Source: Nitrosopumilaceae archaeon (GTDB lineage Archaea; Thermoproteota; Nitrososphaeria; Nitrososphaerales; Nitrosopumilaceae). From it: 47,579 nucleotides of DNA. Each line of letters starts with the position of its first letter. Positions within the stretch are counted from its first letter, which is position 1. The stretch lies in the NCBI GenBank assembly GCA_030038445.1, contig JASHOW010000079.1, positions 1 through 47,579 on the forward strand, read 5' to 3'. The notes under the pieces were generated by a model. The model saw nothing but the letters and a program-made list of their open reading frames with translations, was not told the DNA's origin and did no database searches. Shown one piece after another: positions 32,109 to 38,911 of this stretch. The translations under genes were made by a program, and so were the position numbers.

Positions 32109-33263
32109 GTGGAAAAAGTTTGCGTTATTGGCGCTGGCAGTACAAAATACGGTAAGCTGGAAGATAGCATTACTGACATAGCACTAAAAGCATCCGTTGA
32201 TGCAATAGAAAGTGCTGGTATAGAACCTAAGCAAATTCAGGCTGGTTACATATCAAATGTATTTGGTATAGCGGATAAACAAGTTCACTTAGGTCCAGTA
32301 ATAATGAGCAATCTTGGAATACCAGAAGTACCATCATTATCAATTGAATCTGCATGTGGAAGTGGTTCTGTTTCATTTAGAGAAGCATACGCAAATGTAG
32401 CTGCAGGATTTTATGATGTGGTCTTAGCAACTGGTGTTGAAAAAGTAACTCATACTGGCACAGAATGGACTACTACATACTTTTCTTACTGCTCTGATTT
32501 CTTTTATGAAGGTGGAGCAGGTGCATCATTTCCGGGATTATTTGCGTCAATGGCAAGAGCATATCTTGCTGAGTTTAAGGCAACCGAGGAAGATCTTGCA
32601 ATGGTTGCAGTGAAAAATCATGACAATGGATTTCTTAATCCAAAAGCTCATCTTCGTAAAAAAATTACTGTTGATGATGTGTTAAAATCTGCAGTAGTTG
32701 CAAGCCCATTGAAGCTATATGACTGCTGTCCATTTTCAGATGGTGCAAGCGCTGTAATTCTATGTAGTGAAAAGTTTGCAAAAGCCCATTCCAAAAACTA
32801 CATTGAAGTAATTGGATCTGGAAGGGGTGGATCACCTGCCGCACTGCAAGGAAGAGAACACATTACTACAATTCCAAGCACAAAGATTGCGGCCCAAGCT
32901 GCATACAAGATGGCTGGAATTACTCCAAAAGATGTTGATTTTGCTGAGGTACATGACTGTTTTACAATTGCCGAACTGGTTGACTCGGAAGATCTAGGGT
33001 TCTTTGAAAAAGGAACATCTGTGCAAGCAGTTCGAGAGGGAAGAACAAAGCTTAACGGTGATATTTCTATAAATCCATCAGGAGGGCTCAAATCAAAAGG
33101 ACACCCCATAGGTGCAACCGGAATAGGACAGGTAGCAGAAGTCTTTGATCAATTAACAGGAAAGGCGGGAGAACGAACTGTCAAAGGTGCACAAATTGGT
33201 CTTACACACAACTTTGGTGCCACTGGAGCCAGCTGCGCAGTTCATATTTTCAAAAGTGTATAA
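32109..33263 (+). CDS. Thiolase-family acetyl-CoA acetyltransferase, archaeal/SCP-x-like
   Basis: Nucleophile motif SIESACGSGSVSFREAY, EVHDCFTIAELV, NPSGGLKSKGHPIGATGIGQ. Confidence 0.95.
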   Translation: MEKVCVIGAGSTKYGKLEDSITDIALKASVDAIESAGIEPKQIQAGYISNVFGIADKQVHLGPVIMSNLGIPEVPSLSIESACGSGSVSFREAYANVAAGFYDVVLATGVEKVTHTGTEWTTTYFSYCSDFFYEGGAGASFPGLFASMARAYLAEFKATEEDLAMVAVKNHDNGFLNPKAHLRKKITVDDVLKSAVVASPLKLYDCCPFSDGASAVILCSEKFAKAHSKNYIEVIGSGRGGSPAALQGREHITTIPSTKIAAQAAYKMAGITPKDVDFAEVHDCFTIAELVDSEDLGFFEKGTSVQAVREGRTKLNGDISINPSGGLKSKGHPIGATGIGQVAEVFDQLTGKAGERTVKGAQIGLTHNFGATGASCAVHIFKSV

Positions 33264-33266
33264 GAT

Positions 33267-33632
33267 TTGCTCTCAAAAGAGGAATTTATCAATAACACAA
33301 AGCTAGGAAAGATACTAGCAAGAAAATGCACTAAATGTGGACATCCACATCTAGTTACTACGTATTTTTGCCAAAATTGTGGAAATAAGGGATTTGAGGA
33401 TATACTAATTGAAGGCAAGGGCGTGATAGTTACTTATACAATAATAACTGTCCCGCCAGATGGATATGAGAAATATGTACCATATGCTTGGGTTGTCATG
33501 AAAATAGACAATTCTGAGTTACGAATATCGGGCTTTATGGGGGGCATAAGATCACCAGCAGATCTTCCATTAGGAACAAAAGTAAAGGTGACAGGTCATG
33601 ACGAACGTGGAATAATAATCGAGAAGCAGTAA
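33267..33632 (+). CDS. DUF35 OB-fold protein with zinc ribbon
   Basis: ARKCTKCGHPHLVTTYFCQNCGNKG followed by OB-like region; adjacent to thiolase. Confidence 0.88.
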   Translation: MLSKEEFINNTKLGKILARKCTKCGHPHLVTTYFCQNCGNKGFEDILIEGKGVIVTYTIITVPPDGYEKYVPYAWVVMKIDNSELRISGFMGGIRSPADLPLGTKVKVTGHDERGIIIEKQ

Positions 33633-33703: not shown

Positions 33704-33865
33704 ATGTCAGTAGATGTTGTATGTGATCGATGCGGATCTAAAATAGCTAATATGCGTATGTTAAAATCGATCAAGGACGTGATGAGGCCATATAATAATA
33801 AATGTCCATCTTGCGGTCATACCTTATCGTCGTCAGAATTTAGTGTCGATGTGCAGAAGAACTGA
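33704..33865 (+). CDS. Small zinc-ribbon protein (53 aa)
   Basis: MSVDVVCDRCGSKIANMRMLKSIKDVMRPYNNKCPSCGHTLSSSEFSVDVQKN*, two CxxC pairs; below the ORF track cutoff. Confidence 0.75.
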   Translation: MSVDVVCDRCGSKIANMRMLKSIKDVMRPYNNKCPSCGHTLSSSEFSVDVQKN

Positions 33866-33909
33866 TCTAAAAAGCTTACGACATATCCAGTCATAAATCT
33901 TATTTACCG

Positions 33910-36024
33910 ATGATAAGTAGACTCCATATGGAACTGAGTGAAGACTTTGGCGAGCAAAAGCGCGGAGGAATTTTACAATCTGCATCCAAACGTGTAAGAA
34001 TGATCTTTTCTGTCATGGCAAGTCCTAACAGAATCGATATTCTGAGAATTTTAAACTCAAAAGGCCCACTTACATATTCAGAGCTAAAATCCCTCGCTGG
34101 ATTCAAATCAAAGAAAGAAAGTGGTAAGTTTGCATACCACCTCCGAAAATTATTGCGTCAGTCTCTTGTGGCCCTAAATAAATCTGAGAGGAGATACACC
34201 ATTACAAATCTAGGTAAACTAGTTCTAAGTCTTGCTCGACAGATCGAGGAGCGATCAATCATTGAAAGTGGCAAGATGTACGTACGTACATCCCACGAAT
34301 CTATAGAGGAATTCAACTCTCATAAGATAATCCAATCTCTTGTTAGAGAAGGATGCCTGCCTCTTGAACTTGCGCAAAAGATAACAGAAGAAGTTGAAAA
34401 CCGCATATATAAATTCCAAACATCATATCTGACTTCCTCATTAATACGCGAAATGGTCAATTCTGTACTTCTTGAGCAAGGCCATGAGGATTATAGACAC
34501 AGACTAGCACGATTTGGCCTTCCTGGATATGATGTGCACGAAATGCTGACCAACGTAGATGGTATTCACAACGGCGTAGAAGGCTTACTATTTAAGACAG
34601 GTCAAACCGTTTTTGGGGAATATTTGGTATTAAATACACTTCCCAAGGATGTAGCCGATTCCCACCTGTCAGGTGATATTCATATTACAAACGCTGGCCT
34701 CTGGCCACTTCTTCCTGACACCATATTTGTGAATATAAAGGAGCTAATGGAGGATGGGATAGACTTGAGAGGAAAGTTCTTGGGAGTAACAAGAACTTCC
34801 ACCGCAAACTCTCTTGACGACTTGGCCACATCTCTTTCTATTGCAACATCACTTCTCATAAAAGAGGCATCACAGGAGATCATCATGGACGGTCTAGTAG
34901 GATTATTACAAAAACACTCAAAAAATATTTCAGAAATTGAAGAAAAACTTGCAAATTCCTTTGCTAAAATATCAACCGTGCCTAAATATGGAAGAAATGG
35001 AACATTTGCCTCGTTTAGAATCTCAATAGGTACAGATCCAAAAATTATTGGCGTTATTCTTGCTGCATATAAAAAATATGTCAAGTCTACACCTTTGCCG
35101 TCCATAGGCATCATAATAGACTATGAAAAAGGAAAGATCGGCGAGTTCTCTGATGTCTTGGCAGATGTTATTTCCCTAGGAGGACACTTGATGTTCTCAA
35201 AAGGGCTGACATCAAGCAAAGGTCTTTCGAAGGTAGACGGAAAGAACTCTTCTGCTACCTCAATTAACCTACAGTCCTTGTCCATTAACATGCCGCGGCT
35301 TGCATTTGAATCCAACAAAGATGAAACCTACTTCAGAGCAAGACTAGCGCTGTTGATGAAGCCAGCTCTAGCAGCAATGTCAATACGAAAGAAGGAAATA
35401 TCAGATCTTACTCGTAGAGGACTTAATCCAATTCTTGCAAACAATACACAGTATATGCAAAAAGGATCTGTTACATTAGTTGTTAATCTGATAGGTCTCA
35501 AGGAAGCAGTTTATGGTATACTTGGCTATGAGAACAACAAGGCTGGACAGGAAATTCTGGCAAAAGTTATAGCTACTGCTACAGAGGTAGCGATCAAGAA
35601 GGGAAAAGAGATGGGCGATAACGTTACGATCTCTATTACTGAAAGTGATGCCTCTGCTCGCTTTTCTTCGTTAGATGGTGAAAAATACGGTAAGATGTCA
35701 ATTCACCCACACGTAGAAGGAGAATCTTATTCTGAAGGAGTTACCATTGATGCTTCAAAAATAGACGAAATGAATTCAAAGAGCGAGAAGATAGCGGAAT
35801 CAAATCACCTATCAAAAATGCTTAACGGAGGATTGTTGGTTCAACTCAAAATTCCAGATACAATGGGTTCTCCAGAAATCAAGAAGGCAATAGAGAAGGC
35901 AGGAGAATTACTAGGTTCATTTAGGCCGATCAAGAAGGTGCCTATCTGTAGCAACTGTGGACTCAAAGAAGAAAAGATTGCAGAAAAATGCCCTGTCTGC
36001 AAGTCGCCCTACATACTAGCATAA
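33910..36024 (+). CDS. ArsR-like winged helix fused to ATP-cone-like and degenerate NrdD-like (class III RNR) domains; putative regulator
   Basis: wHTH (SVMASPNRIDILRILNSKGPLTYSELKSLAGF...GKFAYHLRKLLRQSLV), ATP-cone-like (SIEEFNSHKIIQSLVREGCLPLELAQKITEEVENRI...LTSSLIREMVNSVLLEQGHEDYRHRLARFGLPGYDV), NrdD-like body and CxxC...CxxC finger at the very C-terminus. Confidence 0.75.
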   Translation: MISRLHMELSEDFGEQKRGGILQSASKRVRMIFSVMASPNRIDILRILNSKGPLTYSELKSLAGFKSKKESGKFAYHLRKLLRQSLVALNKSERRYTITNLGKLVLSLARQIEERSIIESGKMYVRTSHESIEEFNSHKIIQSLVREGCLPLELAQKITEEVENRIYKFQTSYLTSSLIREMVNSVLLEQGHEDYRHRLARFGLPGYDVHEMLTNVDGIHNGVEGLLFKTGQTVFGEYLVLNTLPKDVADSHLSGDIHITNAGLWPLLPDTIFVNIKELMEDGIDLRGKFLGVTRTSTANSLDDLATSLSIATSLLIKEASQEIIMDGLVGLLQKHSKNISEIEEKLANSFAKISTVPKYGRNGTFASFRISIGTDPKIIGVILAAYKKYVKSTPLPSIGIIIDYEKGKIGEFSDVLADVISLGGHLMFSKGLTSSKGLSKVDGKNSSATSINLQSLSINMPRLAFESNKDETYFRARLALLMKPALAAMSIRKKEISDLTRRGLNPILANNTQYMQKGSVTLVVNLIGLKEAVYGILGYENNKAGQEILAKVIATATEVAIKKGKEMGDNVTISITESDASARFSSLDGEKYGKMSIHPHVEGESYSEGVTIDASKIDEMNSKSEKIAESNHLSKMLNGGLLVQLKIPDTMGSPEIKKAIEKAGELLGSFRPIKKVPICSNCGLKEEKIAEKCPVCKSPYILA

Positions 36025-36220
36025 ATCTATTCTACGATCAGAGAATGTCATTAGCGGCAAATCCAGAAATATTGTCAAATTTGTTTAGGAATTTTTGAGG
36101 AATTCTTTTAAGATTATATTGGTATTTGACGATCTGTTATTATGAAAATTGTAACGGTGTCAACAAAATTGATGCAAAGCTCAGTAATGGAAAAAAAAAT
36201 TTTGCCGCAGGCTTTATTTA

Positions 36221-36253: not shown

Positions 36254-38911
36254 ATGGCAGATTTTTCACAAATAGAAAATTCGATCATGGAAGTTAAGAA
36301 GCGCGATGGTCGCGTATCATCTTTCCAGAAGGATAAAATTTCAAACGCAATCTATAAAGCATTAATAGCTTGTGGTAGACCAGATTACGGATTAGCCGAT
36401 AAACTAGCAAATCGTGTTACCGAAAAACTTGTTAACCATGGGTATTCTTCTTCAGAGTCTCCAAGTGTAGAAGATATTCAAGATGTGGTAGAATCAACCC
36501 TAATTGATGAAGGACAGGGAGAGATTGCTAAAGCATACATACTATACAGACATGAACGAAGAAAGGTAAGAGAGGAGAAGACAAAGGTACTAGAGTCCAC
36601 ATCTTTGGATTCCGTTGCCAAGAAGTTTGATCTCAACTGTCTTAGAGTTTTGGCCTCTAGGTATCTACTGAGAAACAACAAAGGACAGATAGTTGAAAGT
36701 CCAAGTGCGATGTTTGAAAGGGTCGCGATACTTGTTGGAATCTCTGATGTACTCAAAGATCCACTTGTCTTTAGCGTAGAAGGAGGATATACGCAAAATA
36801 CAGAAGATGCAGTAAGATACTTGGACAAGTTAGATGATTTTGACTACAAATTCAAAATAGGGAAATATTATCTCAACAAATACCACTTTAGGTCGCTGAT
36901 ACAGCACTACATTGACCTTGCCAAGCGGGGTCAGATGAAGGTTGGCATCAAAGAATTTCTAACCATATTGGCCGCAAACAAACTTGAACAGCATGCGGAA
37001 AGGATCACAGAATACTATGACATGATGGCTTCTCAGGACTATCTACCGAATTCTCCTACCATGATGAATGCAGGAGCAAGACTTGGACAGCTTTCTGCCT
37101 GTTTTGTGCTTGCAATGCCTGACGATATGGAAAAAATAATGAAGTCGTCTTCTGACGCTGCCTTGATATTCAAATCAGGCGGTGGAGTAGGAATCAATTA
37201 TTCTGATTTAAGACCAGAAGGAGACATGGTTGCATCAACATCCGGTGTTGCATCAGGCCCAGTATCTTTCATGAATATAATTAACACTGTCACAGAAGTA
37301 GTCAAGCAGGGAGGCAAGAGAAGGGGAGCAAACATGGGAATCATTGAATCATGGCATCCAGATATTGAAAAGTTCATTACTGCAAAAACAAAGCCAGGCG
37401 TACTAGAGAACTTTAATGTAAGTGTAGGAGTCTGGGAGGACTTTTGGCAAGCACTAGTAGACTCAACAGACGGAAAATATACACTGCGAAGTCCTCTGGA
37501 CAAGTCACCAGTCAGAGATGTAAATGCCCATCACATAATTGATCTGATAGCACTCTCTGCATGGAAGAGTGCAGAACCTGGATTAATCTTCTTTGATGTT
37601 ATTAACAAGTATAATGTATTTGCAAAGGCTCGCGGCTCACCACTACGTGCAACAAACCCATGTGGAGAGCAAAGCCTGTATCCGTATGAATCATGTAATC
37701 TGGGATCTATTAATCTAGCTAACTTTGTAAAGAGAAAGGCAGACGGGCAATACGAGTTTGACTGGCAGAGATATGAAGAAGCAATTAGAAAAACAACCAG
37801 ATTCCTAGACAATATAATTGATGTTAACAATTATCCTATTTCAGAAATAGACAAGGCATCTAAAGACTCTAGAAGAATAGGTCTCGGAGTTATGGGAGTA
37901 GCTGATCTGTTATTCAAGCTAAGAATACCATACAACTCTCAAGAGGGATATGAGTTCCAGGAAAAATTAGCCGAGGCATTAACCTACTATTCCATGGAAG
38001 AAAGTATTGCACTTGCAAAAACACGAGGACCATTCCCTCTATGCTCAAAAACAGAATATCCAGAAGGTAAGATTCCAGTGGCAGGATATTATGAAAAACC
38101 AAAGAACTCTCGTACCTATGACTGGGATGCCCTTATCGCAAAGATCCAAAAGCATGGAATCAGGAACGTCCTTACTACTACAGTAGCACCAACTGGAACT
38201 CTGTCCATGATTGGTGACTGTTCTAACGGAATGGAGCCAATGTTCGCACTTGTCTTTGAGAAACGAGTGACAGTTGGGAGGTTCTTCTATACAAATAAAA
38301 TATTTGAAGCAGTCCTCAAGGAGCATGGGCTGTACAATGACCAGATATTAGAAAAGATTGCAAACAACTATGGTTCGATAAAGGGAATTCCAGAGATTCC
38401 GGAATGGATGCAAAAGATCTTCGTTACAGCAATGGATATTCATTGGGCCGATCACCTCATGGCACAGGCTGTATGGCAGAGATGGATTGGAAATGCCATT
38501 GCAAAGACAATCAACATGCCAAATGATGTCTCATCTGATGATGTAAAAGCTGCATATCTTTTGGCACATGAGCTTGGTCTAAAGGGAATTACTGTATACA
38601 GAGATGGATCACGACATGAACAGGTGCTACACATGACAGGAGACAACGTAGAGAAGACATTCCAAGTTACTCCAAGTGTATATGTGACTGATCACATATC
38701 AAAGAACATCACAAACGCTTATCTAAGAAGCCAAGTGGAAAGAGCTCTTCAGATAAAGATTCCAGAAGCTGGAACTGTGCAATCACAACCAAAGCTTACG
38801 GCAGAACAAATTGAAGAGAGATTGTGTCCTACGTGCAAAAATACACTTGTATTTGCAGAAGGTTGCAATATATGCATTGAATGTGGATATAGCGGATGCA
38901 CTTCTGGATAG
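36254..38911 (+). CDS. nrdJ: Adenosylcobalamin-dependent (class II) ribonucleotide reductase
   Basis: N-terminal ATP-cone (EVKKRDGRVSSFQKDKI), NSPTMMNAG, NPCGEQSLYPYESCNLGSINLA, TVAPTGTLSMIGDCSNGMEP, C-terminal CPTCKNTLVFAEGCNICIECGYSGC. Confidence 0.97.
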   Translation: MADFSQIENSIMEVKKRDGRVSSFQKDKISNAIYKALIACGRPDYGLADKLANRVTEKLVNHGYSSSESPSVEDIQDVVESTLIDEGQGEIAKAYILYRHERRKVREEKTKVLESTSLDSVAKKFDLNCLRVLASRYLLRNNKGQIVESPSAMFERVAILVGISDVLKDPLVFSVEGGYTQNTEDAVRYLDKLDDFDYKFKIGKYYLNKYHFRSLIQHYIDLAKRGQMKVGIKEFLTILAANKLEQHAERITEYYDMMASQDYLPNSPTMMNAGARLGQLSACFVLAMPDDMEKIMKSSSDAALIFKSGGGVGINYSDLRPEGDMVASTSGVASGPVSFMNIINTVTEVVKQGGKRRGANMGIIESWHPDIEKFITAKTKPGVLENFNVSVGVWEDFWQALVDSTDGKYTLRSPLDKSPVRDVNAHHIIDLIALSAWKSAEPGLIFFDVINKYNVFAKARGSPLRATNPCGEQSLYPYESCNLGSINLANFVKRKADGQYEFDWQRYEEAIRKTTRFLDNIIDVNNYPISEIDKASKDSRRIGLGVMGVADLLFKLRIPYNSQEGYEFQEKLAEALTYYSMEESIALAKTRGPFPLCSKTEYPEGKIPVAGYYEKPKNSRTYDWDALIAKIQKHGIRNVLTTTVAPTGTLSMIGDCSNGMEPMFALVFEKRVTVGRFFYTNKIFEAVLKEHGLYNDQILEKIANNYGSIKGIPEIPEWMQKIFVTAMDIHWADHLMAQAVWQRWIGNAIAKTINMPNDVSSDDVKAAYLLAHELGLKGITVYRDGSRHEQVLHMTGDNVEKTFQVTPSVYVTDHISKNITNAYLRSQVERALQIKIPEAGTVQSQPKLTAEQIEERLCPTCKNTLVFAEGCNICIECGYSGCTSG

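Follow-up and report, generated by a model that had tools for sequence, protein, structure and literature searches.

A winged-helix protein with an inactive NrdD-like body, a probable transcription factor linked to ribonucleotide reductase genes in ammonia-oxidizing archaea

Gene content and domain architecture of the locus

The window (the whole stretch of DNA analyzed here, 47,579 nucleotides from a Nitrosopumilaceae archaeon) contained an ORF of 704 amino acids on the forward strand (positions 33910 to 36024), followed by a gene for a class II ribonucleotide reductase (RNR), nrdJ (Table 1). The product of the ORF is referred to below as the putative regulator. Its true start is probably the ATG at position 33928 rather than the listed one at 33910, because most homologues have their first residue at the position corresponding to M7 and the TATA-like box CTTATTTA lies about 25 bp before this codon. 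An unlisted forward-strand ORF of 53 amino acids with two CxxC motifs (MSVDVVCDRCGSK...NKCPSCGH; positions 33704 to 33865) was found directly upstream; it was kept in the majority of Nitrosopumilaceae loci, also occurred in some of the order's other families, and is possibly a member of the regulator neighborhood. A pair of forward-strand genes at positions 32109 to 33632, coding for a 384-amino-acid thiolase-like protein and an OB-fold/zinc-ribbon protein of the ChsH2 type, lay farther upstream, and such a pair also preceded the regulator in locus L158.

Table 1. Features of the regulator-nrdJ locus (positions in the window)
Feature	Position	Strand	Basis
TATA-like box CTTATTTA of regulator gene	33899..33906	+	Sequence; conserved GTCAYAAATCTTATTTA block before homologues
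Regulator gene (winged helix, ATP-cone, inactive NrdD), probable extent	33928..36024	+	ORF; homologue starts
Winged helix, aa 28-112	33991..34245	+	PF24038 and PF12840 above cutoff; nearly invariant in 62 species
ATP-cone, about aa 123-205	34276..34524	+	PF03477 above cutoff; residue check
NrdD-like body without catalytic residues, about aa 206-673	34525..35928	+	PF13597, fold search, residue check
CxxC..CxxC zinc-site motif (predicted), aa 680-697; expected glycyl-radical loop after it missing	35947..36000	+	Sequence and alignment
Conserved upstream element of nrdJ (candidate operator), core GTCAACAAAATTGA at 36159-36172	36151..36178	+	Alignment and matrix
TATA-like box TTTATTTA of nrdJ	36213..36220	+	Sequence and alignment
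nrdJ, class II (B12-dependent) RNR with ATP-cone, presumed target	36254..38911	+	TIGR02504, 734.8 bits versus cutoff of 399.95; Pfam

Pfam matches to DUF7347 (amino acids 32 to 106), HTH_20, ATP-cone (amino acids 123 to 195, E = 1.8e-9; PF03477, 38.4 bits versus a cutoff of 25.8), and NRDD (amino acids 447 to 699, E = 6e-26) all exceeded the gathering scores. These matches bore out the order of parts given in a preliminary description of the sequence, which had read the protein as a winged helix, an ATP-cone, an NrdD-like body, and a CxxC..CxxC motif. The winged-helix domain, detected with both PF24038 and PF12840 above the gathering score, is predicted to bind DNA. Such a domain is shared with ArsR-like and DUF7347 archaeal winged-helix regulators, but here it is fused to a cone and an RNR body, and the ArsR metalloregulator model stayed below its cutoff (24.6 versus 55 bits). 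Exactly five cysteines were present, as counted in the preliminary description. The four in the C-terminal CxxC..CxxC finger, a predicted zinc site, were invariant in the aligned long forms, but the fifth, to which a place in the cone had also been given, was not conserved and was replaced by Ser in most relatives.

Foldseek searches with an AlphaFold model returned only NrdD structures among the top 33 matches (E values down to 4.8e-15, TM scores of about 0.5 to 0.6), in agreement with the suggested NrdD-like body; the model was of low confidence (mean pLDDT, 53.7) and is informative on topology only. The AlphaFold models were built from close relatives only, and a second model, of the N terminus (pLDDT, 53), gave only weak matches in the fold search (E = 0.2, NrdR cones). 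A profile of the family matched NrdD chains at E = 6e-36 when compared with structures. Taken with the models, these matches indicate that the NrdD fold is retained in the regulator family.

Loss of catalytic residues

How each of the two cysteines, the glycine, and the flap functions has been described for Prevotella copri NrdD (PMC11226230). Alignment with true archaeal NrdDs revealed no full set of Cys1, Cys2, and radical Gly in any of 49 family members; the RPFC cysteine, the QCC finger-loop cysteine, and the R[VI]TGY radical glycine were lost in 49/49, and the NxN flap over the active site was found in 0/49. Both motifs, QCC and R[VI]TGY, were present in all 22 true archaeal NrdDs of the tree described below. 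Two members (L064 and L065) contained a nonhomologous cysteine in the Cys2 column ("TGCRF"), with the other two residues absent. The radical site decayed by degrees: outside the order of the window, some longer members kept the glycyl-radical loop with Gly replaced by Ala or another residue (FSRISAKYLPAPFW versus WSRVTGYYQAVSGW), and within the order the loop was gone altogether.

The curated NrdD model was the best NCBIfam match to the protein, at 81.2 bits, below the cutoff of 326.35. Whether nrdD or nrdG lies elsewhere in the genome had been raised in the preliminary description; the draft genome of the window (1.49 Mb, about 90% complete) yielded no true nrdD, and nothing in it scored above the cutoff for NrdG2. 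Among 41 close relatives, a real nrdD was detected only in genome G038, with nrdG beside it, and TIGR02495, the model used to test for NrdG, exceeded its cutoff only in that genome. Compared with the class III NrdDs of Thermotoga, T4, S. thermophilus, and P. copri, to which it is clearly related in sequence and fold, the putative regulator shares the ATP-cone, the barrel fold, and the C-terminal CxxC..CxxC motif but lacks the active-site cysteines, the radical glycine, and the NxN flap, has an added winged helix, and belongs to a genome without a detected NrdD or NrdG2. As judged from the alignment, a member of this family cannot be a normal NrdD. The earlier observation that catalytic residues were missing and the suggestion that the protein could be a converted RNR were both well supported.

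Distribution, constraint, and neighboring genes

The query was matched (E ≤ 0.001) in 38 of 41 close relatives, including 23 of the 24 good genomes, and in 220 of 300 genomes sampled from the phylum; the weakest of the latter matches may represent ordinary NrdDs or the cones of other RNRs. The winged helix, ATP-cone, and NRDD domains occurred together in all 36 sequences of a diverse member set. The putative regulator belongs to a conserved family that spans the phylum and is no isolated oddity. In a quick tree with several long branches, the family and true archaeal NrdDs fell on opposite sides of a branch with support of 100, a split compatible with one origin. Six shorter members (L074, L076, L078, L079, L089, and L090; about 545 to 602 amino acids) were without the C-terminal CxxC..CxxC motif and had HflX and NAC genes, not an RNR, in their vicinity. 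A scan of viral contigs yielded two matches only, both starting at the cone and without the winged helix.

Mean pairwise identity over the order was 81% for the winged helix, 68% for the cone, and 30 to 42% for the body. Within Nitrosopumilaceae, the winged helix was nearly invariant in 62 sequences, with dN values of 0 to 0.01 at dS values near or above 1, and the dN/dS of the body was about 0.04 to 0.10. The whole regulator therefore appears to be under selection, which is strongest on the predicted DNA-binding head.

The preliminary description had pointed to the adjacent nrdJ as the target. This gene was next downstream on the same strand in 77/77 Nitrosopumilaceae loci with a long enough contig (median gap, 219 bp), and an RNR gene was also directly downstream in 12 further families of the order for which flanking sequence existed. 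The association did not extend beyond the order in the same form: most members there do not adjoin an RNR and are more often found beside pyrB/pyrI or unrelated genes. The linked RNRs of the order belonged to at least four class II types, including NrdJ of 880 to 890 amino acids with a cone, NrdJ of 735 to 790 amino acids with TSCPD and no cone, a Ribonuc_red_2_N type of 1,046 to 1,059 amino acids, an intein-bearing type, and a cone type of 715 amino acids; those run through curated models were class II and B12 dependent. The intein of one linked RNR (L187:1762-5211) contained LAGLIDADG domains and interrupted the barrel. RNRs located elsewhere in genomes of the order (L193 to L198) had no adjoining regulator, and genome G030 (99% complete) contained only an RNR of an unlinked type and no regulator.

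The regulator adjoined a true nrdD in seven loci outside the order (L064, L065, L071, L072, L087, L223, and L224), in three of which a small glutaredoxin-like gene lay between the two. The regulators of L065 and L223 were equal in length, with nearly the same N termini and closely similar neighbors, but the NrdDs encoded at the corresponding position of the two loci shared only 27% identity; apparently, the enzyme gene was exchanged while the regulator stayed the same. We read these comparisons as persistence of the regulator while the target RNR is exchanged. Many members outside the order (L057 to L068, L073, L095, L096, L223, and L224) lay in convergent orientation to pyrB, the gene for aspartate carbamoyltransferase, with pyrI nearby, a neighborhood that is another link to nucleotide synthesis.

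Candidate operator and proposed mode of regulation

Alignment of the gap between regulator and nrdJ genes revealed one conserved upstream element, GTAACGGTGTCAACAAAATTGA at position 36151, which scored 38.5 bits with its matrix (next site in the window, 11.2 bits) and lies upstream of the nrdJ TATA box. Neither the region before the regulator gene nor distant families contained this 28-bp element at a detectable level. Independently, expectation maximization on both promoters of 20 diverse genomes recovered a 16-bp palindrome, GTCAA-N6-TTGAC, with a log-likelihood of 74.6 versus at most 35.7 in 12 shuffles; on 150-bp regions the value was 71.6 versus at most 47.1 in 16 control-promoter sets. 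When each genome was left out in turn, 14 of the 40 held-out promoters scored within the top 5% of the distribution for 91 control promoters (2 expected), comprising 6/20 RNR promoters and 8/20 regulator promoters. The window element contains the palindrome half-sites with one base less spacing, the Nitrosopumilaceae form being GTCAA-N5-TTGA, and the window's own sites were weak under the order-wide matrix. Spacing of the palindrome varied, AT-rich TATA boxes may contribute to the signal, and one of six promoters of unlinked RNRs also scored with the order-wide matrix. Perfect palindromes occurred at chance level genome-wide, and therefore no wider regulon is proposed; the single perfect copy in genome G027 was 60 bp before the regulator gene. 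As a candidate operator common to regulator and RNR promoters, the palindrome is suggestive only. An inverted repeat between the TATA box and the start of nrdJ (ACTCCC...GGGAGT) was also considered as an operator and rejected; its right arm is a family-wide GGGGAG stretch resembling a ribosome-binding site, and its left arm was found only in close relatives of the window.

NrdR, a bacterial repressor of RNR genes, consists of a zinc ribbon and an ATP-cone. The putative regulator likewise joins an ATP-cone to a (predicted) DNA-binding domain, is linked to RNR genes, and is probably autoregulated, but it differs in its N-terminal winged helix, in a complete NrdD-fold body (about 470 residues), and in its candidate operator. 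The NrdR model TIGR00244 was over its cutoff in 0/41 genomes, and the NrdR cutoff was not reached anywhere tested. Nucleotide-contacting residues of Streptomyces coelicolor NrdR (PMC9110341) were used as a reference for the cone, which keeps the equivalents of V48 (V125), E56 (E133), F58 (F135), and K62 (K139); the phosphate-contacting K50/R51 are replaced by T127/S128, with an invariant R126 adjacent. Sensing of ATP/dATP by the cone is plausible from this comparison. NrdR is rare in archaea (PMC9110341).

Overall, the protein is probably a transcription factor that arose from a class III RNR, a reading favored because the link to RNR survives RNR replacement, the winged helix is the most constrained part, and the promoters share a palindrome. 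Members of the family are most probably RNR transcription factors, like NrdR yet not NrdR and of NrdD ancestry yet not RNRs. The regulator would dimerize through its NrdD-like body, and its winged helices would bind the palindrome before its own gene, the RNR gene, or both. Adenine nucleotides in the cone, and perhaps a deoxynucleoside triphosphate (dNTP) in a remnant specificity site, would alter the dimer and thereby its affinity for DNA. Most likely, high dATP would lower RNR transcription and limit the regulator's own synthesis, the role of NrdR in bacteria. The sign of control (repressor versus activator) is the least certain step, the element in the window lying upstream of the nrdJ TATA box.

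A transcription factor of this kind could instead sense something other than adenine nucleotides, for example, dNTPs bound in the former specificity site, a metal or the redox state through the CxxC..CxxC motif, or B12 status. This is unlikely but merits consideration: the phosphate-binding Lys-Arg pair of NrdR is absent from the cone, the finger cysteines do not vary among the aligned long forms, and the targets in the order are B12-dependent RNRs, but the cone ranks second among the domains in conservation and keeps V125, E133, F135, and K139, short members outside the order have no finger, and members also adjoin the B12-independent nrdD. Somewhat less probable still is a protein partner, in which the dead NrdD would bind NrdJ (or NrdD) and adjust its activity or assembly, with the winged helix serving protein contacts. 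NrdD-type bodies are dimerization platforms and cones drive RNR oligomerization (PMC11226230), and the tight gene link to RNR would suit such a role. The protein stays when the RNR is replaced by unrelated types, even of another class, however, which is hard to reconcile with direct binding; conservation is weakest in the body and strongest in the winged helix, and the promoters share a motif. A working but unusual RNR is extremely improbable, for although the NrdD fold and zinc-site cysteines are kept and NrdD is the best (below-cutoff) NCBIfam match, the catalytic Cys, Cys, and Gly are absent in 49/49 members, the NxN flap is lost, NrdG2 was not above its cutoff in the genome, and conservation is lowest where an enzyme would be most conserved.

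With regard to the origin of the favored transcription factor, we give about even odds to a scenario in which a whole RNR was converted early in the archaeal phylum to a nucleotide-sensing factor acting on whichever RNR was in use. Such a factor would be a counterpart of NrdR with an independent origin, possibly sensing more than one nucleotide through the cone and the specificity site, and would have been kept while the enzyme genes were exchanged. No description of the regulator family was found in the open literature, subscription papers lying outside the search, and RNR family analyses, as searched, contained no match for helix-turn-helix, winged, or inactive forms. To our knowledge, transcription-level control of dNTP supply in archaea is largely unknown, and the family provides a specific candidate RNR regulator in nearly all ammonia-oxidizing archaea sampled. 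It is also a clear example of the conversion of an essential metabolic enzyme, here into the probable regulator of its functional replacements. Proteins that automatic annotation would call anaerobic RNRs in these archaea should be treated with caution, as they are predicted not to be enzymes. One contig labeled as a Phycisphaerales bacterium (L153; JAJDDC010000010.1) contained an archaeal copy of the regulator that was 69% identical and is most likely a misbinned thaumarchaeal contig.
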